From Thermoplasmata archaeon (GTDB taxonomy: Archaea; Thermoplasmatota; Thermoplasmata; Thermoplasmatales; Thermoplasmataceae), in the NCBI GenBank assembly GCA_021816745.1, contig JAKAWY010000004.1, positions 1 through 44,481 on the forward strand: DNA of 44,481 bases, given 5' to 3'. Positions 3,698-40,218 of this stretch are shown here, piece by piece. Positions within the stretch are counted from its first letter, which is position 1; every line of letters begins with the position of its first letter. The notes under the pieces are model-generated. The model was given only the letters and a program-made list of their open reading frames with translations. It was not told where the DNA came from and did not search any database. A program made the position numbers and the translations under genes.

Positions 3698-4780
3698 TCA
3701 ATACCTCATGTTCAACTTGTCCGGCAGATAAGTGTCGGTGACAAAGTTTAGGCCATACTTTGCCAGGGCCTGCTGCTCAGCTTTCTTTCCAATCTTCAGC
3801 ATGGTTTCGATCTCATTCTTCCAGAATTCAGTCATGAATCTGGGATCCTGAAGTTCTGCATTCAAGGCAGATATGTCCTGATCCGTCAGGCTGTCGGTGG
3901 GAAGATCGTACTGGAGTATGTCAGTTGCCGTGATCCCCAGGAATTCTGCAGTGGGCACTGCGAGCCAGTCAGAAATGTGTGCTGTTTTTATGGCCCCATA
4001 GGCAATGGATGCAAAGATCCTGAAAGACCATGGATCACCATCTGTAAACACATACACCGGAATCCCCATTTCCTGGTTCATTCTTTTCAGGAGCCTTCTG
4101 GTACTTCTGGCCGGCTGCCCTTTAAGGTGCACAAGTATAGCCCTGGAATCCTCATCAAACCTGTTTTCCACAAGCCTGTCAAACATACCTCCCGTCTCCA
4201 TGGCCACAATCATGTCTGCATCATGGGAGATGAGGTGAAGTTTTTCCTCCTCCACGTTGTATGGAATTGTGTATCCTGAATCTCCAACGTCATCCCTGCA
4301 GTTGATCCTCTTGAATTCCCCCTTCCTGTTCTTCTCTTCCAGGGTGATGTTTCCTATGATGCTGGCCCCGTTTTCCTCAGGCCTGAGGTGAAAGTCCTCC
4401 CTCATAAGTGTGGTCATGACCTCCATGTCCTCCACTAAAAGGTTTGATTCCTCCTGTGCGTGGAACTTGTAATCTTTCCACCCCTCTGAAATGTAGTACA
4501 TTTCCCTTAAGGTGGATGATTTTGACTCCTTCAGCATTTCTGTGATAAACTGGATGGAATACAGCATCCTGGCCATGAACTGGGCCCCGTCCATTTTCTT
4601 GGCATTCCTTCTGACTTCCTGATCTCCATACTTCCATACGCCCAGCAGAGGATCAAGCACGATATTCTCCCTGATTCTGGCCTTCATCCCAAGCTCAGGG
4701 ATCTCCCCCTGGGATATCTGGTCGTATATGATTTTGGCAATTCTTTTCATTTCATCTTCAGTATCATTCCTCTGACTCAT
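3698..4780 (-). CDS. top6A: DNA topoisomerase VI subunit A (Spo11-like)
   Basis: This is the DNA-cleaving subunit of the type IIB topoisomerase. The paired tyrosines in REMYYIS (about residues 95-96) include the active-site Tyr of the winged-helix domain. The Toprim domain shows its metal-binding acids in [12 protein letters not shown] and in DGDPWSF. The length of about 360 residues is typical. I chose the ATG at 4780 over an upstream in-frame TTG at 4789 and a later ATG at 4750. It overlaps the end of top6B by 17 bases, giving the usual B-then-A order. The complex relaxes and decatenates DNA with ATP. Confidence 0.95.
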
Positions 4781-6608
4781 AGGTTTCAACCCCCTTCAAT
4801 CCCCAGTCTGATGGCAGTTCTTCCGCACCCTGCACCAGCACCGGGTTAATTCCCGTGAAATAGTATTCTGCTTCCATGCCCTGTTCCAATGGTTCATCAT
4901 GTTTGTATGTGAATGTCTCTGACATATCCAGTCCCTCGATCTTGAGATCTGTTTCTTTCTCCCCAAAAATCACTTTCAGGTTCATGGATATGGGGCTCAT
5001 GGTGTAGTTTATCACTTCAGTGACTGAATATTTCTTTCCATTCTCCTCTTTTATGGATTCCCTGACAAAGACCACGTTGGCAATCTTGCTGATTACCACC
5101 CTGCAGTCTGGTATCTCCAGGGAAAGTATTTCACTGCTCTTTTTTGCAATTTCCGGTATCACGGTACTGACAAGCTGGAATTTTTCACCCATTCTCTTGT
5201 TCCTGTCTGCCCTGCTGTTAAACTTCCTGAGCTGCTTGAGCTCCATCTTTATAGCTGACTTGACCGCCTCAGTGATCTCATCCACCGGGGCAATAGCCTC
5301 CTTGGATTCTGAGGTATAAGGAAGCCTTGGTCCGTATACATGCACCATGATTATGGCTGGTCCATATGGTACACCCTTTCCCTGTTTCTGCTCAAACCCG
5401 AACTGCCTCCAGTCCAGTTCACTAATAGCTTTTGTAATGGCGCATGATCCAGGGTGGAACAGCAGTGGAACCTTGTTTGCATACCTGAGCACCTGAATTG
5501 TCTCATCGGATGGGAGTGCACCCCCATATACCATCCCCGTCTCCACTGAGAAGGGATTTCCCTTGTATATGGCGACCCTGCCAGAAACTGGCTTGCCATA
5601 GAAGGATGGCTTATGTTCCCCGTAAACGGACAGCATTCCTGTACGTATGAAGTGTTCAGTGATAGGTGAGAGTGATTCTGCAGAAGGCGGCATGAGTTTC
5701 GTTTTCATGATGCCTGAGATGATCTTTTCCGCGATTTGCTTTTCAACCCTGGAGGGTGGAGTTGATGGATCAACTTCAGCATTTTTCAGTATTTCCAGAG
5801 CTGTGGACTTGCTCACCCTTGAAAAGGAGGATGATAAAAGTGATTCCAGTGAATCCTCTTTGCTTTCCCTGCATATGGAAAGAATGTCTCCTATCTCAAC
5901 ACCATAGGGATGTGGTTTCGTTGCTTTTGGAGGCTTGGATGGTTCATCGATGCTTTTCTCGAAGATTGTCTTTTTTCCCTCAGGATCTGTGAATGAAATT
6001 TTTGCATTGGGATTCACCACTGCCAGTTCCCTGAGGTATTCCCCGATGGACTGTTTTCCGGAGATGAATCTACCCTTTGCCCTGATGCGAATCTCTGTTC
6101 CTGATGGTTTTTCCCAGATGACAGGATCCTCGCTGTGCACATGGGCAGTATTGTTTTTAACGTCAATTCCAAGGACAAACCGATATGCCACCGCATCCTC
6201 CGGCCTCCTTGTAGTAATAACGCTGGGTTCCCCGGAGGTACTCTGTCCATAGAGGATAGCTGCGGTGATACCGATACCCTGCTGGCCCCTGGACTGTTTC
6301 AGCACGTGAAACCTTGAACCATAGAGAAGTTGCCCGAACACCCTGGGAACCACAGTTCTCTCTATCCCGGGACCATTATCCAGAACGGCCACTTCATACA
6401 TATCTTCCTTCAGTAGTGTAATTCCCACTGAAATTTCTGGAATTATTCCATGCTCTTCGCATGCATCCAGGGAGTTGTCCACGGCCTCCTTTACCATCAT
6501 AAAAAGTGATTTCTGCAGGGAATCAAAACCAAGCATATGTCTGTTCTTCTCGAAGAACTCTGACACAGAAACCTGCCTGTAACTGTCAGTTTCAGCTTTC
6601 TTGGGCAT
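4764..6608 (-). CDS. top6B: DNA topoisomerase VI subunit B (GHKL ATPase)
   Basis: This is the ATPase subunit of topoisomerase VI. GHKL motifs are clear: EAVDNSLDACEE with the Mg-binding Asn at residue 45, the DNGPGI motif and SRGQQGIG. They are followed by the helix-two-turn-helix and transducer regions. The 614 residues lack the extra C-terminal domain of some homologues. The ATG at 6608 is preferred to a GTG at 6617, because a TATA-like element lies 24-30 bases upstream of it. Topoisomerase VI is reported absent from classical Thermoplasmatales, so its presence matters for placing the organism. Confidence 0.95.
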   Translation of the reverse strand: MPKKAETDSYRQVSVSEFFEKNRHMLGFDSLQKSLFMMVKEAVDNSLDACEEHGIIPEISVGITLLKEDMYEVAVLDNGPGIERTVVPRVFGQLLYGSRFHVLKQSRGQQGIGITAAILYGQSTSGEPSVITTRRPEDAVAYRFVLGIDVKNNTAHVHSEDPVIWEKPSGTEIRIRAKGRFISGKQSIGEYLRELAVVNPNAKISFTDPEGKKTIFEKSIDEPSKPPKATKPHPYGVEIGDILSICRESKEDSLESLLSSSFSRVSKSTALEILKNAEVDPSTPPSRVEKQIAEKIISGIMKTKLMPPSAESLSPITEHFIRTGMLSVYGEHKPSFYGKPVSGRVAIYKGNPFSVETGMVYGGALPSDETIQVLRYANKVPLLFHPGSCAITKAISELDWRQFGFEQKQGKGVPYGPAIIMVHVYGPRLPYTSESKEAIAPVDEITEAVKSAIKMELKQLRKFNSRADRNKRMGEKFQLVSTVIPEIAKKSSEILSLEIPDCRVVISKIANVVFVRESIKEENGKKYSVTEVINYTMSPISMNLKVIFGEKETDLKIEGLDMSETFTYKHDEPLEQGMEAEYYFTGINPVLVQGAEELPSDWGLKGVETYESEE

Positions 6609-28989: not shown

Positions 28990-30498
28990 TTAGTCCCAGA
29001 AATTCAGTGATCCAGAGGCTATTTCTTTTAGTTTGTCTGTATCCATCAATAATTCCATCTTTTCAAAATCCCTGTAGATAGCTCTGTCTTCCTGCAGGAA
29101 TTCAATTTTCTTTCTGATGATATCATGTAGATCTGCAGAAAGTCTGGAATAACCGTTCGGTGAAAGGTCCATTGCCTGGATTCCCATCACAAACTCAGTG
29201 GCTATGATCCTCTTGATGTTACTGTTTATCTCTTCAAGCTTCAGGGCTGAATTCGCCCCCATGCTCACATGATCCTCCTGGTTTGCGCATGTGGGGATGG
29301 TGTCTGCGGAACCCGGATACACAAGAATCTTGTTCCTGTTACATAATGCAGCTGCGGCATACTGCCCTATCATGTATCCTGAATTGAGTCCACTGTTTTT
29401 CACTAAAAATGGATCAAGCCCGCTGAGGGTTGTATCGGTGAGTCTTGCAAGCCTTCTTTCAATCATGTTTCCAAGATCTGTAAGAGCAATGGCCAGGAAG
29501 TCGGATACCAGTGCAACTGGCTCTCCATGGAAATTTCCACATGAAATGTATTCCTCACCGTTTACCAATGGGTTATCCGTGGTGGAATTCATCTCAGCCA
29601 CCATGACGGATTCCACATATTTTATTGTGTCATAAACAGCGCCATAAACCTGGGGTGTACATCTAAGGGTATACGCATCCTGAACCTTGATCCTGTTTTG
29701 TTCCTGGACCCGTTGGCTGCTCTCCATGATTGCATGCATTCTGCCACCGATCAGAGACTGGCCCGGTTGCTTCCTGGTCTCCAGAGCCCATGGTGAAAAA
29801 GCCTTTGATGTTCCATTCAGCGCCTCAAAAACTGGCATGAAGGACAGGCCGGCCATGGAAAGATTCCATTTTGCACGGATCAGTTCCACGGAGGCAATTG
29901 CAGTTATTGCAGAGGTACCATTTATAAATGATATTGCTTCTTTTTCCTTGAGCCTGTATGGTGAAATCCCCTTTGAAACAAGAATTTCTCCTGCATCTTT
30001 TCGCTTCCCGTCCACCATGATCTCGCCCTCTCCAATCAGGGAAAGGCAAAGGTGAGCCAATGGGGCAAGATCGCCACTGGCCCCTACTGATCCATACTCT
30101 GGAACAAAGGGACAGATATCGAGATTCAGGAATTCCAGAATTTTCTTTACCAGATCCAGTGAGACTCCTGAGTACCCCCTGCAAAGGCTGTTTGCCCTTA
30201 CCAGCATCATTGCCCTTACCTTGTCCCTGGAAAGTGGCCTGCCTGAACCGGCAGAATGACTCCTTATGAGGTTAATCTGCAGTTTTTCAGTATCTTCCCT
30301 GCTGATCTTCACATTGAGGAGGCTCCCGTAGCCTGTATTCACTCCATATACTGATCTTCCGCTGTCCATGATCCTCTGAATTGACTCTCTTCCACTCCTG
30401 ATTTTATCCAGGGCAGACTTGGAAATTTCCACCTTTTCCCCGAGGAAGCATACGTTGTATATTGAATCCAGATTCAGGCTTTCGCCATCAATAATCAT
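28990..30498 (-). CDS. hutH: Histidine ammonia-lyase
   Basis: The MIO-forming tripeptide Ala-Ser-Gly (residues 140-142 in GSVGASGDLAPLAH) and catalytic Tyr51 in YGVNTGYG identify the aromatic ammonia-lyase family. The Ser-His pair in RSHSAGSG and NQEDHVSMG are the forms typical of histidine, not phenylalanine or tyrosine, lyases. It converts histidine to urocanate and ammonia. At 502 residues it is complete. No urocanase, imidazolonepropionase or other hut gene is next to it. A TATA-like stretch lies about 25 bases upstream. Confidence 0.93.
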   Translation of the reverse strand: MIIDGESLNLDSIYNVCFLGEKVEISKSALDKIRSGRESIQRIMDSGRSVYGVNTGYGSLLNVKISREDTEKLQINLIRSHSAGSGRPLSRDKVRAMMLVRANSLCRGYSGVSLDLVKKILEFLNLDICPFVPEYGSVGASGDLAPLAHLCLSLIGEGEIMVDGKRKDAGEILVSKGISPYRLKEKEAISFINGTSAITAIASVELIRAKWNLSMAGLSFMPVFEALNGTSKAFSPWALETRKQPGQSLIGGRMHAIMESSQRVQEQNRIKVQDAYTLRCTPQVYGAVYDTIKYVESVMVAEMNSTTDNPLVNGEEYISCGNFHGEPVALVSDFLAIALTDLGNMIERRLARLTDTTLSGLDPFLVKNSGLNSGYMIGQYAAAALCNRNKILVYPGSADTIPTCANQEDHVSMGANSALKLEEINSNIKRIIATEFVMGIQAMDLSPNGYSRLSADLHDIIRKKIEFLQEDRAIYRDFEKMELLMDTDKLKEIASGSLNFWD

Positions 30499-30569
30499 AG
30501 AGGATAATGTGCGTTTCGTAAATTATTTTTGCTCATGCGAAAACTTTAGTTTTGAAAAAGTTCCACTGA

Positions 30570-30884
30570 TTAATTATCGGTACTTTCAGTTACCCTGAAA
30601 CTGCTAGATACCTTAGAGACAATTAAGGTTATAACCAATGTAATGGTGGCAACAAAAATACCCTGGAACATTGTATAGTTAAAGGAGAAACCTGAAAAAT
30701 TATAGAAGAAATACGAGAGGGGTCCAAATGACAGAAATGGTATTAGCCATGCCATGGCATAGTTCAATGCACGGGATCTTGGGTTTGTAATCCTAACAGT
30801 AGAAACATTGTGAGTAAAAGTCCAGGATTCCCCTCCATCCTTATTCCTACTATTGGTAATCCTGATAATGCTTCTCTTACCCAT
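30570..30884 (-). CDS. Small membrane protein, unknown
   Basis: I do not recognise this 104-residue protein. The N-terminal 40 residues are polar, with two similar short stretches (IIRITNSR and TVRITNPR). Two membrane segments follow (about 43-61 and 72-91). A TATA-like ttataaaaag 20-25 bases before the ATG supports a real, leaderless gene. It lies between hutH and the metallo-beta-lactamase-fold gene, all on the same strand. Confidence 0.6.
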   Translation of the reverse strand: MGKRSIIRITNSRNKDGGESWTFTHNVSTVRITNPRSRALNYAMAWLIPFLSFGPLSYFFYNFSGFSFNYTMFQGIFVATITLVITLIVSKVSSSFRVTESTDN

Positions 30885-30922
30885 GAAATCTAATTCTTTT
30901 TATAATTATTAATATTTTCATT

Positions 30923-31612
30923 TCAACTGTCAGGAGGAGGCCAGTTAAAAGGTTCAATTTCCAGTGCGTTCTCAAATTCCTCCCTTGTATGCCATGGGGA
31001 TTTATCACAGTGTGAAATTATTACGTGATCAAAATCCAATGAAAGCATATCCCTGAGTGCATCTAACTCCCATCTTTTATGCATGGGAGAATCCCAGACC
31101 CTGAGAACACCATGGCTTTCCATTAAAGCGTCGCCAAACACGATAATTTTCTCATTCCGGATGTACAGGGGTGTTTCTCCTCTCCCCCTGGCATCGTATA
31201 ATGGAAGAATGCCTCCGGGAAGTTCAAGTCCCGGGATGCATGGTAAAAGAGAGTGGACAGGAACCTGTTCCCTGAAATAAAACATTGGGCCGTAGACCCT
31301 GGCATCATATCGCTTTGCAAACATGTCCAGGTCCCTAACATGATCAGGCATGGTTGCTATGACCATGGTGGGTGATTCCCTGTCAAGGAAATCCCATAAA
31401 TTCAAGTTTTCCATTGAAGGGGCCAGTGGATCGATTAAAACTGATTCACCTTTGGTTTTTACCAGTACTGAAGTTACGATTGGCTGGTAATCGTCATTCT
31501 GAGTCCAGTAGGGATGCCTGGCCCTCCAGATCCATAAATTTTCGTTGATTTTGTAGATCCCTGATGCATTGAATCTTTCCGGGGTTTTGCCATTTCCAGA
31601 TTTCATGTTCAT
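30923..31612 (-). CDS. Metallo-beta-lactamase-fold protein with degraded metal site
   Basis: The 229 residues follow the metallo-beta-lactamase plan. VLIDPLAP forms the early strand and loop, TMPDHVRDLD stands where active enzymes have THxHxDH, VFGDALM matches the strand with the bridging Asp, and ISHCD matches the last His. The HxHxDH motif therefore keeps only His and Asp in part (DHxxDLD). Metal binding may be altered or lost. The function is unknown. GGGAG lies before the ATG at 31612. Confidence 0.65.
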   Translation of the reverse strand: MNMKSGNGKTPERFNASGIYKINENLWIWRARHPYWTQNDDYQPIVTSVLVKTKGESVLIDPLAPSMENLNLWDFLDRESPTMVIATMPDHVRDLDMFAKRYDARVYGPMFYFREQVPVHSLLPCIPGLELPGGILPLYDARGRGETPLYIRNEKIIVFGDALMESHGVLRVWDSPMHKRWELDALRDMLSLDFDHVIISHCDKSPWHTREEFENALEIEPFNWPPPDS

Positions 31613-31731
31613 CTCCCGTAGTATATGTATTGATTGATTTATGATGTTTATGTTTCATTGTCCATTTAAGGATAGTTACCGTTCAGATTGTTCTACACTG
31701 AGGGAAAATGTTTCCATTGTGCAGGTGAATC

Positions 31732-31740
31732 TTTTATAAT
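31732..31740 (+). promoter_or_regulatory. TATA box of the DNA methyltransferase gene
   Basis: The element ttttataat is centred 24 bases before the ATG at 31760, the standard spacing for a leaderless transcript. It supports 31760 as the original start codon even though the frame breaks shortly after. Confidence 0.55.
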
Positions 31741-31759
31741 GCCTGGACATTTGACTTTC

Positions 31760-32549
31760 ATGGAGCTGGGGAGAAATTAAACACCAGATATATTTAGGGG
31801 ATACCATCGAAATTCTTTCCAGACTGCCTGAGAATTCAGTTGATCTGATTTTCGCTGATCCTCCCTATGGGCTTTCAAAGGCGAAGGGACTTTCATGGGC
31901 GTTCAGCAAGCATGTGACACTTCAGGAATCATGGGATATGTTCACCCAGGACGACCTGTATAAATTCAATCTTCAATGGATCAGTGAAGCATTGAGAGTC
32001 CTGAGGCCGGGTGGAAGTTTCTGGGCCTGTGGTTCATTCCACAACATCTACCAGATTGGATTTATAATGCAGAGCCTTGGAATGAGGATCAATAACAGCA
32101 TTATCTGGTTCAAGCCCAATGCACAGCCCAACATTACCACGAGAATGTTTACAGAAAGCACTGAGCAGCTTGTATGGGGAGTGAAGAACCACTCCAGCAT
32201 AAAGTGGACTTTCAATTATAAGGATATGAAGGAGATGAACGGTGGCAAGCAGATGAGGAATGTGTGGACCATTCCAGTTACACCGCGCAAGGAAAAATGG
32301 GCTGGGGATCACCCAACCCAGAAACCCATAGAACTACTGAAAAGAGTTATTCTGTCGTCCAGCAAGGAAGGAGATACTGTCCTGGATCCATTCCTGGGAT
32401 CAGGAACCACCTCCCTGGTGGCAGAGATGGAGGGAAGGAATTCAGTTGGAATTGAAATCAGCCCTGAATACATGGAGATAATAAGAAAAAGAATGGATGG
32501 CATCAGGGAAGAGAGAAAAGAGGATGAATTAACAGTGGAATTCATTTGA
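31760..32549 (+). pseudogene. Beta-class DNA methyltransferase with a one-base frameshift near its start
   Basis: The body is a DNA amino-methyltransferase of the beta type (DPPY first, SAM motif last). DPPYGL is encoded at about 31857-31874, and the SAM-binding motif DPFLGSGTTSLVAE near 32386. GSFHNIYQIGF resembles the M.HinfI/CcrM-like adenine-N6 group. No ATG, GTG or TTG precedes the DPPY motif in this frame; the first is GTG at 31914, after it. The ATG at 31760, placed right after a TATA box, runs into a stop at 31778. Dropping one G of GGGG (31768-31771) joins it perfectly to the methyltransferase frame (MELGEIKHQIYLGD). It may be a sequencing error, a true mutation or a recoding site. 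No restriction enzyme gene is nearby. Confidence 0.75.
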
Positions 32550-32558
32550 TTTCATGCA

Positions 32559-33557
32559 TCAGGCATAGATATTCAAAACCGCATCATCCGCCAGGGCAAC
32601 TGCATAACCTGCCATGGCCCTGATACCCCTGATTATCAATGTCATCGGCAACCTGTCATTTGCAGGAAGATCCTTTTCCAGTTCATGAACCTGCATAAAA
32701 TGTTTCCTGACTCCATCCATGAGTTCCAGTACCTCTGCAGCTCCCTTGATGTCACTTGCATTAAGTGAATCAAATGCTTTCAAAGACATCTCTGCAGTTA
32801 TGCCTGACATTGCCTCCAGATGCCTCAGGAAATTTTGCTTCAGTGGATTCCTTATTTCTGTGACATGCTGTGCAGTTCGCATGGCATAATATGACATCCT
32901 TCCCATCTCCCTTATGGCTATCACTTCAATCATCAGTTTCTGGACATTGTGGAAACCGTAATGCTCCCTGAGCTCCACCGATCGTGATGAAAGTGTGGCA
33001 AGCCTCATCAGGAAACGGTAACTCTTGATCTGCTCTTTCCCTCTCCTCAGGGCGTCACTGGCAAGATCAGACCTCATTTCTTTCAACGCACGGATAGAAT
33101 CATTCAGGACTGCCATGGCATTGTTCAGGAATTTTTTCAGCTCCATGGGAAGATCGAACTTGAAGGGATCTATGAGATTCTGTAATTTTATGCTGCCAGA
33201 ATATTCCTCGGATATCTCTACACCTAGGAGGCCATCCAGTGAATCGGTCACCCATTTTTTCCATTCATGGGAAGAATCCATCTTTGATTTTACCTCCATG
33301 ATATCATTTCCCACAATGTACGAAGAGGTTATGCACATCTCCAGCAGCCTTTCATCGGTGAAATCCTCCACCGAGATTGATCTTGTTCCGGGACCCTGGA
33401 TTTTCCTGGATACCGGTGTTATGGATATGTCACTCCCCTGTATGGAAAGGCTTAGAGGATCGCCTTTTGTAATTCCGAGAGATTCCACCCAGGCCTTTGG
33501 AATGGTGACAATGTAAGTGCCATTTGCAGTGGTTTGAAGCTTCCTTATATCTTTCAT
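32559..33557 (-). CDS. AbrB-PhoU phosphate-uptake-type regulator
   Basis: The N-terminal 50 residues are an AbrB/SpoVT swapped-hairpin DNA-binding domain (TYIVTIPKAWVESLGI). The remainder is helical and PhoU-like in two parts (about 85-190 and 205-320), with MxxxxRxxxE-like metal-binding patterns. Such archaeal proteins are annotated as phosphate-uptake regulators. No pst transporter is adjacent; instead the gene is divergent from the glyoxylate-shunt operon. A threefold ATGTA repeat lies 9-31 bases upstream of its ATG at 33557, suggesting autoregulation. Confidence 0.82.
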   Translation of the reverse strand: MKDIRKLQTTANGTYIVTIPKAWVESLGITKGDPLSLSIQGSDISITPVSRKIQGPGTRSISVEDFTDERLLEMCITSSYIVGNDIMEVKSKMDSSHEWKKWVTDSLDGLLGVEISEEYSGSIKLQNLIDPFKFDLPMELKKFLNNAMAVLNDSIRALKEMRSDLASDALRRGKEQIKSYRFLMRLATLSSRSVELREHYGFHNVQKLMIEVIAIREMGRMSYYAMRTAQHVTEIRNPLKQNFLRHLEAMSGITAEMSLKAFDSLNASDIKGAAEVLELMDGVRKHFMQVHELEKDLPANDRLPMTLIIRGIRAMAGYAVALADDAVLNIYA

Positions 33558-33565
33558 GAAAATGC

Positions 33566-33588
33566 ATGTAATATATGTAAAATATGTA
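33566..33588. repeat. Three ATGTA direct repeats at exact 9-base spacing
   Basis: ATGTA occurs at 33566, 33575 and 33584, followed by inverted copies TACAT at 33601, 33605 and 33643. The array covers the region where the regulator gene's TATA box should be. Tandem sites on nearly one helical face fit a protein that binds cooperatively. Confidence 0.45.
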
Positions 33589-33629
33589 TTTATTAATATC
33601 TACATACATATTTATTTTTATCCACATAG

Positions 33630-33652
33630 TTAGTATTAAATATACATACTAA
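33630..33652. promoter_or_regulatory. Palindromic operator around the aceB TATA box
   Basis: TTAGTAT (33630-33636) and ATACTAA (33646-33652) form a perfect seven-base inverted repeat with a nine-base spacer. The spacer and left arm contain the TATA-like attaaatata, centred 25 bases before the aceB ATG. A protein bound here would block TBP, so repression is the likely outcome. Confidence 0.5.
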
Positions 33653-33663
33653 ATGATTAACTG

Positions 33664-35250
33664 ATGACAGAAAATGAGAAGGTGCAAGGGGTCCATGTTG
33701 CCCCGTGCAAGGTCGAAATGGCCAATACATTGCTCAGTATGGATTGCTTATCATTCCTTGCTGAATTATCAAGGAACTTTACAGAGGAAAGAAATTTACT
33801 CCTGAAAGACAGGAAGTTGCAACAGGAAAAACTGGACCAGGGAGAACTTTTTGATTTTCCCCATGAAACTGAAAATATAAGGAAAGGTGACTGGAAGGCA
33901 GCACCATTTCCTGAATATCTTGCAGAGAGAAGAGTGGAAATAACCGGTCCTTCCTCAGACCCCAAGATGGTGATCAATGCCTTCAACTCAGGGGCCAACG
34001 TTTACATGTCTGACTTTGAGGATGCACAGTCACCATTCTGGGAACTTATGATGCTGGGCCAGGAGAATCTTTACAGGGCTGTGAGGCACACCCTCAATTT
34101 TACCTCAGAAGAAGGAAAGGAGTACCGAATGAATGACAAAACCGCCATTCTTTTTGTGAGACCAAGGGGGCTCCATCTGGATGAAGCGCACGTTCATGTG
34201 GATGGAAAACCTATTCCCGGATCATTCTTCGATTTTGGAGTCTACTTTTTCAACAACGCAAAAGAGCTGATCAAGAGATCACTGGTTCCAACATTCTACA
34301 TCCCTAAAACTGAGAGTTACCTTGAAGCAAGGCTGTGGGACAAAATTTTCACATTTTCCGAAAAATACCTTGGACTGGAGAATGGAACAATAAAGGCAAC
34401 TTTCCTTGTGGAAACTCTTCCTGCGGCATTCCAGATGGATGAGATCATCTACGAGACGAAGAATCACTCCCTTGGCCTGAACTGCGGAAGATGGGACTAC
34501 ATCTTCAGCTATATCAAGAAACTCAGGTCAAATCCTGATTTTGTTCTTCCTGACAGATCGGAAGTCACCATGGACAAAGGATTTCTCCTTGCTTATTCCC
34601 GATTGCTGATCAGGACATGCCACAGAAGGGGTGTCCACGCAATGGGTGGAATGTCTGCATTTATACCGGTGAAAGGGGATGAAGAGAAGAACAGGGTAGC
34701 TTTCCAGAAAGTCAGGGAAGACAAGGAAAGGGAGGCAGGAAACGGGCACGACGGAACATGGGTGGCTCACCCCGGTATAGTGCCGGTTGCGAAAGAAGCC
34801 TTTGACAAAAAGATGCCATCTAAAAACCAGATATCATTAATTCCTGAAGTCAGCATTGGAAGGAAAGAGCTTATCACCCCTGTTACCGGTAAGATAACTG
34901 AAGAAGGACTCAGATCAAACATCAGGATTGGAATCAGGTACCTGGAGGCTTGGATTGGTGGCAAGGGTGCAGTTCCATTGTACAACTTAATGGAGGATGC
35001 CGCTACCTCTGAAATCTGCAGAACTCAGATATGGCAGTGGATAAAGCATAAGAAATCCACAGAAAATGGACTCAGGATAGACAGGGAGAATGTATCCAGA
35101 ATCATAGGAGAGGAGGTTTCCAGGCTGAATAAAACACCAGAACTGGAAATTGCTTCTGAATTGTTCAAAAATGTCGTAATGGACAGCGGGTTTGTTGAAT
35201 TCTTCACCATACCTGCTTATGAGAAAATACTGAAAATGGAGGGATACTAA
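33664..35250 (+). CDS. aceB: Malate synthase A
   Basis: This enzyme condenses glyoxylate and acetyl-CoA to malate. At 528 residues it is of the A type. Signatures are [14 protein letters not shown], the [13 protein letters not shown] region with the catalytic Arg, and [16 protein letters not shown] with the catalytic Asp near the C-terminus. Its stop overlaps the aceA start by one base (taATG), so the two shunt enzymes are co-translated. Together they allow growth on acetate, fatty acids or other C2-yielding compounds. Confidence 0.96.
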
Positions 35251-36500
35251 TGACTGGAAAATTTGAAGATGTGCCTAACGGAAGATGGGATGGGATTGTA
35301 AGGCCCTATGGAGAAGATGAGGTTAAAAGGATTTCAGGCACAGTCAGGGTGGATCATACCATCAGCAGAATGATGTCCATAAGGTTGTGGAATCTTCTGA
35401 ACCGGAAGAATCATGTTGCTGCACTGGGTGCACTCTCAGGAACACAGGCAGTACAGATGGTGAGAGCGGGTCTGGAGGCTGTTTATCTAAGTGGATGGCA
35501 GGTGGCAGCAGATGCAAATCTTGCAGGTCACACTTATCCAGATCAGAGTCTGTACCCGGCAAACAGTGTTCCAACTTTGGTGAAGAGAATCAACAACGCA
35601 TTCCAGCGGGAGGATGTGATCTCCACCATGAATGGAGTGCGCAGGGAATCCTATGTACCCATACTGGCTGATGCAGAGGCGGGTTTCGGAGGCCCTTTGA
35701 ATGTGTTTGAACTTACAAAATCGATGATTGAGGCAGGTGCTGCAGGAATTCATCTTGAAGACCAGCTTTCATCGGAAAAGAAATGTGGCCATCTTGGAGG
35801 AAAGGTTCTGATACCCACTTCCAGTTTTATCAGGAATCTGGTGTCGGCCAGGCTTGCATCTGATGTACTGGGAGTTCCGCTTATCATTGTGGCAAGAACA
35901 GATGCGCTTTCAGCCAGGCTAATCACTAATGACATAGATCCGCTTGATCAGGAATTCATTGGGAGAGGCAGGACATCAGAAGGATTCTATGATTTTGAAG
36001 GTTCACTGGATGCATGCATAAGCAGGGGCCTCGCCTATGCCCCATATTCGGATATGCTATGGTTTGAGACGGCCAGCCCGGACGTGGAACAGGCCAGGAC
36101 ATTTGCAAAGAAAATACATGAAAAATTCCCTGGAAAACATCTTGCCTACAACTGCTCCCCATCATTCAACTGGAAGACACATCTCTCACCAGAGGAGATA
36201 GAAGGTTTCCAGGATGAACTCGGGAAACTTGGATACAAGTTTCAGTTCATCACCCTGGCGGGATTCCATGCTTTGAATCTTTCCATGTTTGAACTGGCTA
36301 CTGGATACAGGGAACACGGGATGGCTGCATATTCCATGCTGCAACAGAGGGAATTCCAGATGGAACCCATGGGATATGGGGCTGTAAAGCACCAGAGCTT
36401 TGTGGGTACCGGGTATTTTGATGAGGTAATGCAGGTCATAAGCGGATCTGAGAGTTCAACAACTGCACTGGGTGAATCCACGGAGGCCAGGCAGTTCTGA
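35250..36500 (+). CDS. aceA: Isocitrate lyase
   Basis: This enzyme splits isocitrate into glyoxylate and succinate. The active-site signature KKCGHLGGK and substrate-binding DAEAGFGG are present. The 416 residues match the family. It lies directly after aceB under the same promoter. An eight-T run follows the gene. Confidence 0.96.
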
Positions 36501-36513
36501 TCCCCATTTTATA

Positions 36514-36521
36514 TTTTTTTT
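36514..36521 (+). terminator. T-tract terminator of aceBA
   Basis: Eight consecutive T (36514-36521) lie about 14 bases after the aceA stop codon, which fits an intrinsic archaeal terminator. It also marks where the AT-richer island begins. Confidence 0.5.
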
Positions 36522-36642
36522 CTTGTGGAAGAAATGAGGAGTATCTTGTTTTGGATAAAAATTAAATGCTTGAACAAAGGAAGTATAAATCCCTTAATTC
36601 AACATGGAAATTATTAAATATTTTTATATTTATTATTAGAGC

Positions 36643-36948
36643 ATGAAAAAAGTATTTATTCGCGAAAATGCCTATGTGAATAAGGAACTTTTTATTAAAA
36701 ACGGACATGGAATTGATTCTGGACATGGATATCTGAAAGTCGAAGATCAGAACTTCAACAAAATGATTGACTTTGCAACGGGACCTGATATAAATGGGAT
36801 CATGATCATTTCTACTAACCCAAATGATTTGATCCATACCTGTGAAATAGTTCCTCAACCAGCAGTACCACATGGCTCAGAACCGAAAGACAAGTGTCGG
36901 GTATATCTGGATCAATATTTGGTTTGTTCAGGCTTGATGAATAAGTGA
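36643..36948 (+). CDS. Hypothetical protein
   Basis: I do not recognise this 101-residue product. It is soluble, with no signal peptide, and has Gly/Asp/His-rich stretches (NGHGIDSGHGYLKV). A TATA-like run (aaatatttttata) lies about 20-30 bases before the ATG, which favours this strand over a 103-residue open frame antisense to it. It could be a short island gene or a fragment. Confidence 0.45.
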   Translation: MKKVFIRENAYVNKELFIKNGHGIDSGHGYLKVEDQNFNKMIDFATGPDINGIMIISTNPNDLIHTCEIVPQPAVPHGSEPKDKCRVYLDQYLVCSGLMNK

Positions 36949-37005
36949 TCCAATGATGACGTACAAATTTCTTAGGTGGTTCATGAATAAAGGGAGTTGT
37001 GTACT

Positions 37006-37419
37006 GTGAATCTTTCTTTTTTTCTTGAGTTATTTGCAGCTGGGGTCGCTGGATTTGGTTTAATTTTAAATGGCATATCTCTTTGGAAGAATGCAAACGC
37101 CCGGTATTTGTCCAATTTACAGGGATTCACTAGAGAGATTAGAGACCTTTGGGAATCTGATAATTTTGATAAGAGTTATACCAACTGGGGAATTAATATC
37201 CTGAATGCACTCAACAAAATCGCATTTCTGGCGGATAAGAAGAAAATAAATTCATCCCTTGTTGGTTATTTTGATAATGATTTTAAATATGCATGCGGTC
37301 TTCTTAACTTAAAGGAATTCAAGAAATATCAAAAAGACGTTCCTAATTTGAATCATTGGTGCGAAAAATACCCAGATAAAGTAAAGAATCTTTCTAATAC
37401 AAGTTATGATAAGAAATAA
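37006..37419 (+). CDS. Membrane-anchored hypothetical protein, possibly interrupted
   Basis: This is a 137-residue protein starting at GTG 37006, with AAAGGGAG a few bases upstream; a TTG at 36997 is the other option. One N-terminal membrane segment (about residues 3-23) is followed by a soluble helical domain with FTREIRDLWESDNFD. The layout recalls DUF4760-type proteins, but I cannot confirm this. The frame continues open for 48 codons after the TAA stop (37420-37566), so the gene may be a longer one cut by a nonsense change. It belongs to the AT-rich island. Confidence 0.5.
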   Translation: MNLSFFLELFAAGVAGFGLILNGISLWKNANARYLSNLQGFTREIRDLWESDNFDKSYTNWGINILNALNKIAFLADKKKINSSLVGYFDNDFKYACGLLNLKEFKKYQKDVPNLNHWCEKYPDKVKNLSNTSYDKK

Positions 37420-37579
37420 TCTGTTAATGAAGATCCATGTAAGCAACTTGACATTGTTTCATTTTTGACATATGTAAAGTCAAAGTATGGATCTGTCTTT
37501 AAGGAAGAAATAAATCTAAAACAACATCTTTATGGTGTCACACTGATGGAGGAAGTGGGAAATTGAAGTCTTTAAAAGG

Positions 37580-38071
37580 TCAAAATTTGATCTCTCCGAT
37601 CTTATCTTTTAGGTTCAATATAAGTACTCCACACATTTTATCAATGACATCCAACCCAAGAAGCCGAGGTATTTCCATAATTTTAGTATTGGTTTGTTTA
37701 TAAACACCTCTTGATTTTTCACGTACATTGCTAATTTGGTCAGGACTGATCGAAATTTTTTCCATATTAACCCCAAATGGTTCACCATTGATGAGCAAAA
37801 AGAATAGTGTAATTTCATGGGCTATTGGAGTGTTTGTTAATCCGCCTATTCCACCTATTGGCATTTTTTCAAGAGATGAAACATCTAACCCCAGTTCATA
37901 TGCGTCTTTGTCAGTTATAGATGATATTCCGGAACCTGTGTCGACATGCATAATTATGTCACAATGTGTATATTCCGATGTTTCACCCATCTTACTGATC
38001 TTTCTGCTTAAACGGACAGGAACTGAAAATAATTTTTTGGATATATCCCATTTTAGAGATACGGAAGGCAT
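37580..38071 (-). CDS. Retropepsin-like aspartic protease
   Basis: A DTG active-site motif (HVDTGSGISSIT, Asp about residue 44), a Gly-rich stretch like a flap (GGIGGLTNTP) and the late LLGLDVID motif identify a single-domain, retropepsin-like (clan AA) aspartic protease that would act as a dimer. I chose the ATG at 38071 over a TTG at 38086. There is no signal peptide, so it should act in the cytoplasm. It directly follows a DUF5678-like gene, which may be its partner or target. Confidence 0.7.
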   Translation of the reverse strand: MPSVSLKWDISKKLFSVPVRLSRKISKMGETSEYTHCDIIMHVDTGSGISSITDKDAYELGLDVSSLEKMPIGGIGGLTNTPIAHEITLFFLLINGEPFGVNMEKISISPDQISNVREKSRGVYKQTNTKIMEIPRLLGLDVIDKMCGVLILNLKDKIGEIKF

Positions 38072-38073
38072 AA

Positions 38074-38316
38074 TTATAGAATCCAAAGAAGATTGTTTTC
38101 AGTGATCTGTTCAATAAATATGCCAGGAACGGTTTTAAATTTCCCAAGTAGCTCCTCTTTAGTGTGAGCATATCCCAGCACTTTGCCGTCAGAAATGGCT
38201 ACGTACTTCCCAACATGTGATTGCAATTCATTGTGCATCCTATTGAAACTCTCAAAATTATCACTAAATTTCCTGAAAGATCTGATTTGTTCAGGTGTTA
38301 GTGTTATGTTTTCCAT
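38074..38316 (-). CDS. DUF5678-like small protein
   Basis: The 80 residues contain a helix followed by HVGKYVAISDGKVLGYAHTK, the pattern of DUF5678 domains (HxGKYVAxxDGxVxGxAxT). The function is unknown. A TATA-like tttatatt about 25 bases upstream supports a leaderless transcript that also covers the protease gene. Confidence 0.65.
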   Translation of the reverse strand: MENITLTPEQIRSFRKFSDNFESFNRMHNELQSHVGKYVAISDGKVLGYAHTKEELLGKFKTVPGIFIEQITENNLLWIL

Positions 38317-38688
38317 AAATTAGAGAATAGAATTAGAATATAAATTCTTTTCATATTCTTATCTTAATCTTTCTTTCGAGAAAATTTAATTGAAATAACG
38401 TAAATTAATGCTATAAACGTGATAGCAAACGTTCAACCTAAGGTATTTAACGATAATCAGAATGGATAATTATATCAGGATGTTGTATTAATATGGCTTT
38501 TTACTCAATAAAAAGGTCATAAAATAAAATTCACTATGATATGTGTGTATAAATGAACCAAGAAAAGTGGAAATCAGGAAAGAGATCTTGTGTGAACAGA
38601 AAAGGAATACAATGTTTGATATCGTAGTTATCTAAATAAGCCAATTTATGTTTTTTAAAGAAGTCCAAACACCCTTACCATTCCGATC
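38317..38688. other. AT-rich stretch without a recognisable gene
   Basis: Apart from the promoter of the DUF5678-like gene near 38341, I see only short open frames with no convincing product. A 24-codon frame begins at an ATG near 38553 after a TATA-like element; it is too short to support. Confidence 0.4.
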
Positions 38689-38919
38689 ATGGCGAACAAG
38701 ATAAGGGCTTACCCCAGCAATAAGGTATAATCCACTTTTTTCCTTATGGATCGTATGTCTTTCTTATTACCCCCTACATTTATCATTTTCCGCGAACCAT
38801 TATAAAATTATTATAGACTCACCGCTTTCATCAAATGTAGAAAACACTTTGAAGGCTGCAAGGAGGGGCTGAAGGAAGTCCCTTCCCATATATACTTCAA
38901 GCCATTGTGGAAACCTTAG
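38689..38919 (+). pseudogene. Possible decayed reading frame
   Basis: From the ATG at 38689 one frame runs 76 codons with two internal stops (38728-38730 and 38803-38805). Its last 37 codons read like real protein (RLTAFIKCRKHFEGCKEG). The first part (MANKIRAYPSNKV) faintly recalls DDE transposases, without proof. It lies in the island, next to an integrase remnant. Confidence 0.25.
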
Positions 38920-39148
38920 AATATCTATTTCCTGTAATGTTTCGTCCTAGAAAATTATGAAACTCTTCCAAGTTAATTTCTTCGTTTGCCCAACTGATCC
39001 TCTTGAATGCTATCATGGAATAATCTATAATATTTCTTAGATGAATCTTTTTGTTTAGTGCATCATACAGCAAAGGTTCGCCTTTCCGAGAGAACCTTTT
39101 CATATTCTTTGAATTAATAATCCAACCCATGAAATTAACTATGAACAT
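38897..39148 (-). CDS. Hypothetical protein or fragment
   Basis: This 83-residue frame starting at ATG 39148 has a Lys/Asn/Glu-rich composition like other island genes and no recognisable domain. Other ATG codons lie within the first 16 residues. It may be a fragment of a mobile-element gene. Confidence 0.3.
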   Translation of the reverse strand: MFIVNFMGWIINSKNMKRFSRKGEPLLYDALNKKIHLRNIIDYSMIAFKRISWANEEINLEEFHNFLGRNITGNRYSKVSTMA

Positions 39149-39231
39149 TATTCTTGAAATTGAACCTGAAATGTGATCTTACAAGAATGGTGAATTAGAA
39201 GGCAGAAAAATCCCTAGACTTAGACTTTTGA

Positions 39232-39423
39232 CAAATCCTGATGTGACATGTGTCTTTATCGAGCACCCAGATATATACACACGTCAACCGTGATGAGCTT
39301 GCAGAGAGCGTGAACAAAAGGCTCAGCAAATTTTTTCGAGATGACGGAAAAGAGGTAAAAAAGGTGAACCCACATATAATTATACGGGTCTGGAGGGGTT
39401 CGAACCCCCGGCCTATGGATTAA
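39232..39423 (+). pseudogene. Tyrosine recombinase (integrase) C-terminal remnant
   Basis: The frame reads QILM, a stop codon (TGA at 39244-39246), then HVSLSSTQIYTHVNRDEL and a basic helix. This is the end of a tyrosine recombinase: the stop takes the place of the Gly in the usual LMGH box, TQIYTH carries the catalytic Tyr (codon 39274-39276), and a C-terminal helix follows. A stop also lies before QILM, and no Arg-containing upstream boxes remain. The frame runs on through the 3' half of tRNA-Lys and ends at 39421-39423. This geometry fits the remnant of an element that integrated at the tRNA gene. Confidence 0.75.
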
Positions 39424-39458
39424 GAGTCCATCGCTCTACCTGGCTAAGCTACAGACCC
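39385..39458 (-). tRNA. tRNA-Lys (CTT)
   Basis: This is a full cloverleaf of 74 bases: acceptor GGGTCTG/CAGACCC with discriminator G, anticodon loop CTCTTAA with anticodon CTT, and T arm GGGGG-TTCGAAC-CCCTC. There is no intron and no encoded CCA. A box-A-like aaatatttaaacc lies about 25-35 bases before its 5' end. Its 3' end faces the AT-rich island. Confidence 0.96.
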
Positions 39459-39576
39459 AGCAAAAGGGAAATGCCATCAACGGTTTAAATATTTTTATTT
39501 TGATCTCCCAGCTTTATTCTATCTCATTGGAAAATTAGAAATGGAAACCTTAACATTCATAAGAACATGACAAAAT

Positions 39577-40218
39577 GTGTTCACTGTCATCGTCAACATG
39601 AAATCCTACAAAGAGACCATAGGAAAGAACTCAGTTGAATTTATCAAAAATATTTCTAAAATCCACAAATCCGGATATGAACTAAAGATTGCAGCACCTT
39701 ATACATCACTTCATCTTTCTACCAATTATAAGGAGATTATTTCGCAGCACGTGGACTACGAAAAACCAGGGGCCCATACTGGATCGATCATAATGGAGGA
39801 TTTGATGGAAAATGGAGTTAAAGAATCCTTATTAAACCATTCAGAAAGAAGGGTTGGCCTGGAGGTGGCCAATCAAACCATACAACGTTCCTCAGAACTT
39901 GGTTTCACTCTTTATGTGTGCTGTGAAACTGTGGATGAAATAGAAAAATTATGCACCATGGGGGCAAAATATGTGGCCTACGAACCAAAGGAACTCATAG
40001 GTGGAGATATTTCTGTCTCAACATCAAAACCTGAAATTATAAAAGAAGGAGCAGAGATTTGCAAAAAGCATGGAAGCACCCTCCTGGTGGGAGCAGGCGT
40101 AAAGAATGGTGAAGACGTGAAAATTGCGAAAATGCTTGGAGCCGGAGGAATACTGGTCGCTTCCGGAGTTGTCAAGGCAAAGGATCCCTTCAACGCGTTA
40201 AATTCATTAATGATATGA
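39577..40218 (+). CDS. tpiA: Triosephosphate isomerase
   Basis: This short archaeal-type TIM barrel of 213 residues interconverts glyceraldehyde 3-phosphate and dihydroxyacetone phosphate. The catalytic residues are visible: Lys in VNMKSY, His in LNHSERR and Glu in AYEPKELIG. Phosphate-loop motifs are GAGVKNGEDV and LVASGVVKAKDP. The start is GTG at 39577; an ATG at 39575 is in another frame. It overlaps the next gene as ATGA. Confidence 0.95.
   Translation: MFTVIVNMKSYKETIGKNSVEFIKNISKIHKSGYELKIAAPYTSLHLSTNYKEIISQHVDYEKPGAHTGSIIMEDLMENGVKESLLNHSERRVGLEVANQTIQRSSELGFTLYVCCETVDEIEKLCTMGAKYVAYEPKELIGGDISVSTSKPEIIKEGAEICKKHGSTLLVGAGVKNGEDVKIAKMLGAGGILVASGVVKAKDPFNALNSLMI

Follow-up and report, generated by a model that had tools for sequence, protein, structure and literature searches.

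The window, a stretch of 44,481 nucleotides of DNA from an acidophilic Thermoplasmata archaeon, contained the C-terminal stump of a tyrosine integrase gene, which was fused to the 3′ half of an oppositely oriented tRNA-Lys(CTT) gene. The stump is a real scar left by a mobile element that has decayed, though in itself an ordinary one. An element with a classical tyrosine integrase was most probably inserted into the 3′ half of tRNA-Lys(CTT) and then eroded to the stump, with a probability of about 0.93; this value and the likelihoods of the rival explanations were assessed one by one, so their sum may differ from one. The window was contig C7 of a 1.295-Mb genome of 95 contigs (79% complete), and the features of the locus were as follows.

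35250–36500, + strand: isocitrate lyase, the left chromosomal neighbour, with a tail 97.7% identical in contig G071:C136
36501–39213, no strand: island separating the stump from isocitrate lyase, low in GC (about 33%, where most of the window has about 45%); the whole stretch up to tRNA-Lys measures 2.9 kb
37580–38086, − strand: island gene of 168 aa with a weak match to retropepsin-like aspartyl proteases (PF13650, E 0.001, below the cut-off)
38074–38316, − strand: island gene of an 80-aa DUF5678 protein (PF18929, E 3.8e-8), overlapping the 168-aa gene
39214–39423, + strand: integrase stump, residues 255–323 of a 323-aa tyrosine integrase plus the stop codon (tblastn E 4e-25; alignment with intact and truncated relatives)
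39384 to about 39429, − strand: putative attachment-site core, the tRNA-Lys 3′ half, as indicated by separate 3′ halves in relatives
39384–39459, − strand: intact tRNA-Lys(CTT), found by ARAGORN
39577–40218, + strand: gene on the 5′ side of tRNA-Lys, the right chromosomal neighbour, conserved there in G048, G049, G051 and G052; we take its product, from reading the sequence, to be triose-phosphate isomerase-like

The 323-aa integrase of a related contig (G070:C180) was matched by tblastn to a single place in the whole window, 39214–39420, with 68% identity and an E value of 4e-25, and the next-best match had an E value of 0.9. A sequence-only reading of this DNA had described a tyrosine-recombinase tail with the catalytic tyrosine, and both were confirmed: the tail corresponded to residues 255–323, and the Tyr codon was located at 39274–39276. 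The remnant had been placed from 39232 onward; the remnant stood, but detectable homology began at 39214. The + strand frame was translated as KSLDLDF-stop-QILM-stop-HVSLSSTQIYTHVNRDELAESVNKRLSKFFRDDGKEVKKVNPHIIIRVWRGSNPRPMD-stop, and it contained two in-frame TGA codons, at 39229–39231 and 39244–39246, of which only the second had been noticed. The proposed origin of that stop from a glycine codon (GGA to TGA) was not sustained. The residue at this position was Arg (LRH; CGG or CGC) in the three nearest tRNA-Lys-specific relatives, and Gly occurred in more distant tRNA-Pro relatives. Integrase codons 1 to about 254 were absent from the locus, in agreement with the earlier view that the rest of the integrase was gone, and about 80% of the gene was lost. 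Among the active-site residues, only the Tyr box was left in the stump; the Arg and the HxxR motif, which the relatives keep together with the Tyr, had disappeared.

The stump frame entered tRNA-Lys by 40 nt, counted from the tRNA 3′ end, as the sequence-only reading had claimed in stating that the frame runs into the 3′ part of the tRNA gene. The last 13 codons and the stop were antisense to the tRNA-Lys 3′ half. The terminator, TAA at 39421–39423, fell within the anticodon loop of tRNA-Lys(CTT) on the opposite strand and had two bases in common with the complement of its anticodon.

The similarity to intact PF00589 members did not end at the short Tyr motif, and extended over 69 codons with 68% identity (E 4e-25). 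The 58-residue tail of the stump was found within longer open integrase frames in G071:C136 (88%, E 1.5e-31) and in G070:C180 (76%, E 1.9e-25). Outside the tRNA, 136 of the 152 bases of the stump were identical to G071:C136 and 117 of the 152 to G070:C180; therefore, the homology was not a product of the tRNA overlap. The stump alone scored 21 bits against PF00589 (cut-off 27.1; E 3e-4), being too short a piece, and among solved structures the bare tail was closest to Thermoplasma XerA, with an E value of 0.04. Because the Pfam score was below the threshold and the structure match was this weak, the integrase identity of the stump rested on its close relatives, which scored 85.3 (intact) and 83.5 (N-truncated) against the same profile. 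Between the stump and G071:C136, four synonymous and seven non-synonymous differences were counted in 46 codons. Together with the two stops, these small counts would fit loss of constraint, and the stump is, as judged from sequence, a pseudogene of the tyrosine recombinase/integrase family (PF00589).

Intact integrases overlapped tRNA-Lys in the identical way on three contigs, G070:C180, G071:C176 and G078:C33, and whole integrases of 323–327 aa adjoined a complete tRNA-Lys in the first two. The nearest genomes carrying the integrase were the Thermoplasmata metagenome bins TL1-4.bin52 and LSA5.bin89. Contig G070:C180 (JAJZXT010000050; 36,169 b) encoded the intact 323-aa integrase and terminated in the same tRNA-Lys with 52 bp of identical upstream flank. 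Since this tRNA flank equals that of the window, the contig was probably misbinned in TL1-4.bin52. Contig G071:C136 (JAJZJZ010000165; 3,087 b), from LSA5.bin89, opened with the 41 final codons of isocitrate lyase, which matched the window at 97.7% over 128 bp, and its far end was the same tRNA-Lys with the upstream flank. Its integrase of 214 aa comprised the catalytic domain and was N-truncated, being equal to the intact form from residue 109 (109–323). The bin has its own isocitrate lyase elsewhere, only 65% identical, so the contig was very probably misbinned and came from the species of the window or a sister species. The scar reading, in which an element was integrated at an attachment site inside tRNA-Lys, was thus supported both by the full-length integrases overlapping the same tRNA gene and by the almost identical locus of a second assembly, whose copy has decayed less. 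Taken together, the intact, N-truncated and stump forms look like a decay series at apparently the same site in close relatives, whether from one insertion or several.

Between L060 (2366–3010) and L061 (19238–19882; G070:C180), synonymous divergence fell from 0.68 in the integrase body to 0.25 over the final 46 codons that precede the tRNA (Fisher p 6e-5). This mosaic suggests recombination near the attachment site.

The stump also led to a contig, at least 36 kb long, on which an intact integrase is accompanied by several defence genes. In addition to the integrase, G070:C180 encoded a second recombinase of 210 aa (72% identical in the G071:C176 element), a DnaA-like initiator, a type III methylase with a restriction enzyme, a DpdA-like protein (E 4e-116), a UvrD-family helicase, a PD-(D/E)XK nuclease and an AbiV HEPN protein.

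The attachment site was taken to be the tRNA-Lys 3′ half because intact and truncated relatives overlap the same tRNA gene. Free-standing tRNA-Lys 3′ halves, covering tRNA positions of about 30–75, were present in at least five genomes (G072, G073, G078, G080 and G083). Archaeal integrase attachment sites are 40–50 bp long (PMC8371274); the separate 3′ halves agree with this size and would place the stop codon of the integrase within the core. Across the family, 37 tRNA-Lys loci were surveyed with a query lacking the 13 tRNA-encoded residues. The integrase was present at eight loci (E 2e-16 or better) and absent from the other 29 (best E 0.026). Very short stumps in G069 and G079 were discarded, as their apparent signal was gone once the tRNA-encoded residues were dropped. 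Among the other loci of the order bearing the tail, the integrase end overlapped a tRNA gene (Lys, Pro, Asn or Met) in 18 of 24.

Arrays of tRNA-Lys 3′ halves were observed on three contigs: at 4388–4433, 6115–6149 and 8884–8931 of L210 (G078:C59), at 4804–4848 and 6191–6235 of L211 (G080:C20), and at 2773–2847 and 5184–5219 of L209 (G080:C26). Their spacing was 1.4–2.8 kb and no integrase was detected in these stretches; the arrays look like tandem small islands at reused attachment sites.

The second copy of the tRNA-Lys 3′ half that the sequence-only reading had anticipated was not found: no match exceeded shuffles in 30,000–39,383, in the incomplete (79%) genome or in the element contigs. 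Because of this, the left end of the element was not fixed, and as there was no direct repeat of the tRNA 3′ half, the locus was described as a decayed scar and not as a bounded element. The search for the missing integrase half, which had also been proposed, gave no match in the window or the incomplete genome. The genome had three other PF00589 matches: a complete-looking gene on C34, which by eye resembles XerA, and a pair of short ones on C18. The latter were two head-to-head tyrosine-recombinase frames of 176 and 184 aa at 4857–5942 (L078, G000:C18), apparently without the N-terminal part. In viral contigs, neither an exact match to the attP-like core nor the 58-residue tail was found, and alignment of the integrase gave only distant relatives (38% or less).

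The interval between isocitrate lyase and the stump or integrase was about 2.8 kb in both the window and G071:C136, and the island contents were unrelated. G071:C136 carried a ClpP-like SDH-type protease in place of the island genes of the window. Homologs of the 168-aa island protein were present in 8 of 116 other genomes of the order. Apart from the stump, no genes of the intact elements were found in the island of the window. The island at 36.5–39.2 kb is probably the remains of the element or later cargo.

On the left, the glyoxylate shunt genes for malate synthase and isocitrate lyase (33664–36500) adjoined the tRNA island. Among 12 genomes of the genus that were compared, several of them incomplete, only G000 and G051 had a true isocitrate lyase. 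The window also encoded a DNA methylase lacking about 50 N-terminal residues (31914–32549), a 70% identical relative of which was located directly downstream of tRNA-Lys in G048 (L065 10808–11596).

From these observations, the origin of the locus may be outlined as follows. A mobile element whose tyrosine integrase was classical (lambda-like, of archaeal type II) would have inserted by recombination into the 3′ half of tRNA-Lys(CTT). The attachment core would form the 3′ terminus of the integrase gene, where the last 13 codons and the stop codon run antisense to the tRNA 3′ half, and integration would have restored an intact tRNA with the integrase remaining whole alongside. Codons 1 to about 254 would then have been removed by deletion or replacement, and the remaining tail would have acquired two stop codons, with loss of the other attachment-site copy; the order of these losses is tentative. 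The end state would be a stump fused to a working tRNA. These results indicate that tRNA-Lys has served repeatedly for insertion in this archaeal family, and close relatives show intact, N-truncated and stump forms at what appears to be a single site. Integrated elements at tRNA genes and leftover tRNA fragments are well known in archaea (PMC8371274, PMC6563490, PMC12302457, PMC9897764). The interest of the locus is therefore modest, and lies in the clean decay series and in tRNA-encoded integrase ends that are common across the order.

A quite improbable alternative is that the stump was the attachment-site arm of a non-autonomous, satellite-like element that had at no time encoded a complete integrase and relied for its insertion on a helper integrase acting in trans. 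Stumps of integrase C-termini do recur at tRNA genes, and one of them, together with tRNA-Pro, was 96% identical over 248 bp in two genera with unrelated flanks (L023 1475–1722; L026 reverse strand 1475–1722). The islands of the window and G071:C136, which differ yet have about the same length, also suit this explanation. However, G071:C136 retained residues 109–323, which are needless for an attachment-site arm. Paired attachment-site copies were searched at 20 loci, up to 20 kb each (5 had no tRNA in the stretch), upstream of the other integrases and stumps. Only one marginal 16-bp match was obtained around the stump islands, and the full-length controls likewise had no repeat, so this absence carries little weight. 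Hits at three tRNA-Met/tRNA-Asn loci were rejected as attachment-site copies, being merely the neighbouring tRNA. The left ends of the stumps varied; that they cluster close to the limit of detection is in keeping with simple decay, and a defined boundary near the xH box was set aside as a likely detection bias. The broader proposal, that the recurring stumps at Thermoplasmatales tRNA genes are attachment-site arms of satellites that have lost the integrase and are inserted in trans by full integrases of the same population, likewise has little probability.

An SSV-type (suicidal, type I) integrase, split at the attachment site so that the window would hold Int(C) and the other end of the element Int(N), is very unlikely. 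A split integrase would leave a C-terminal fragment beside the tRNA, and Int(C) fragments of this kind have been described (PMC8371274). However, the tRNA-derived core closed the gene at its 3′ end instead of lying within it, and the integrases of 323–327 aa in G070:C180 and G071:C176 were intact beside a complete tRNA-Lys. Furthermore, PF00589 was the sole domain found in the intact relatives, without PF16795, their signature was R...HxxR...Y, and no Int(N) piece was present in the window. None of the SSV-type characters, namely a core within the gene, division into Int(N) and Int(C), and PF16795, was therefore observed.

A chimeric contig or sequencing errors joining an integrase end to a tRNA would suit the fragmented assembly and the relatives' contigs that end near tRNA-Lys, but the chance of such an artefact is minimal, as the separate assembly (JAJZJZ010000165, LSA5.bin89) has the same order of isocitrate lyase, island, integrase and tRNA, and the missing codons 1–254 are not explicable by base-calling error.

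Insertion of an element with a classical integrase, followed by decay, was compared with known systems. The integrated elements of Thaumarchaeota (PMC6563490) and the genomic islands of acid-mine archaea (PMC12302457) also target tRNA 3′ regions and form low-GC islands beside tRNA genes, Thermoplasmatales included. Those are bounded elements or predicted islands, whereas the present locus is a stump without a detectable second attachment-site copy. XerA of Pyrococcus (4a8e) and Thermoplasma (5hxy) gave the best sequence matches among solved structures, but the intact relative scored 132.7 bits against NF040815 (NCBIfam XerA), below the cut-off of 220, and, unlike XerA, it overlaps tRNA genes and has tRNA-encoded ends. 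The suicidal type I integrases of SSV1, pTN3 and pT26-2 (PMC8371274, PMC6972569) share an integrase frame that partly coincides with the tRNA 3′ half and a C-terminal piece beside the tRNA. However, theirs are split by integration, while the relatives here are whole with the core at the 3′ end. The type II (classical, pNOB8/XerA-like) integrases of plasmids and viruses (PMC8371274) differ in that the relatives here have HxxR where pNOB8 is given as YxxR, that the attachment core here lies within the integrase frame, and that the window keeps only the last 69 codons; the direct repeat at the far end (attL/attR) was not seen in the window or in the incomplete genome. They have in common with the present locus a tRNA 3′ half of 40–50 bp as the attachment site, a tRNA left intact, and an unsplit integrase with the PF00589 catalytic domain beside or overlapping the tRNA 3′ half, which is whole in the relatives on tRNA-Lys and has the same overlap in the window.
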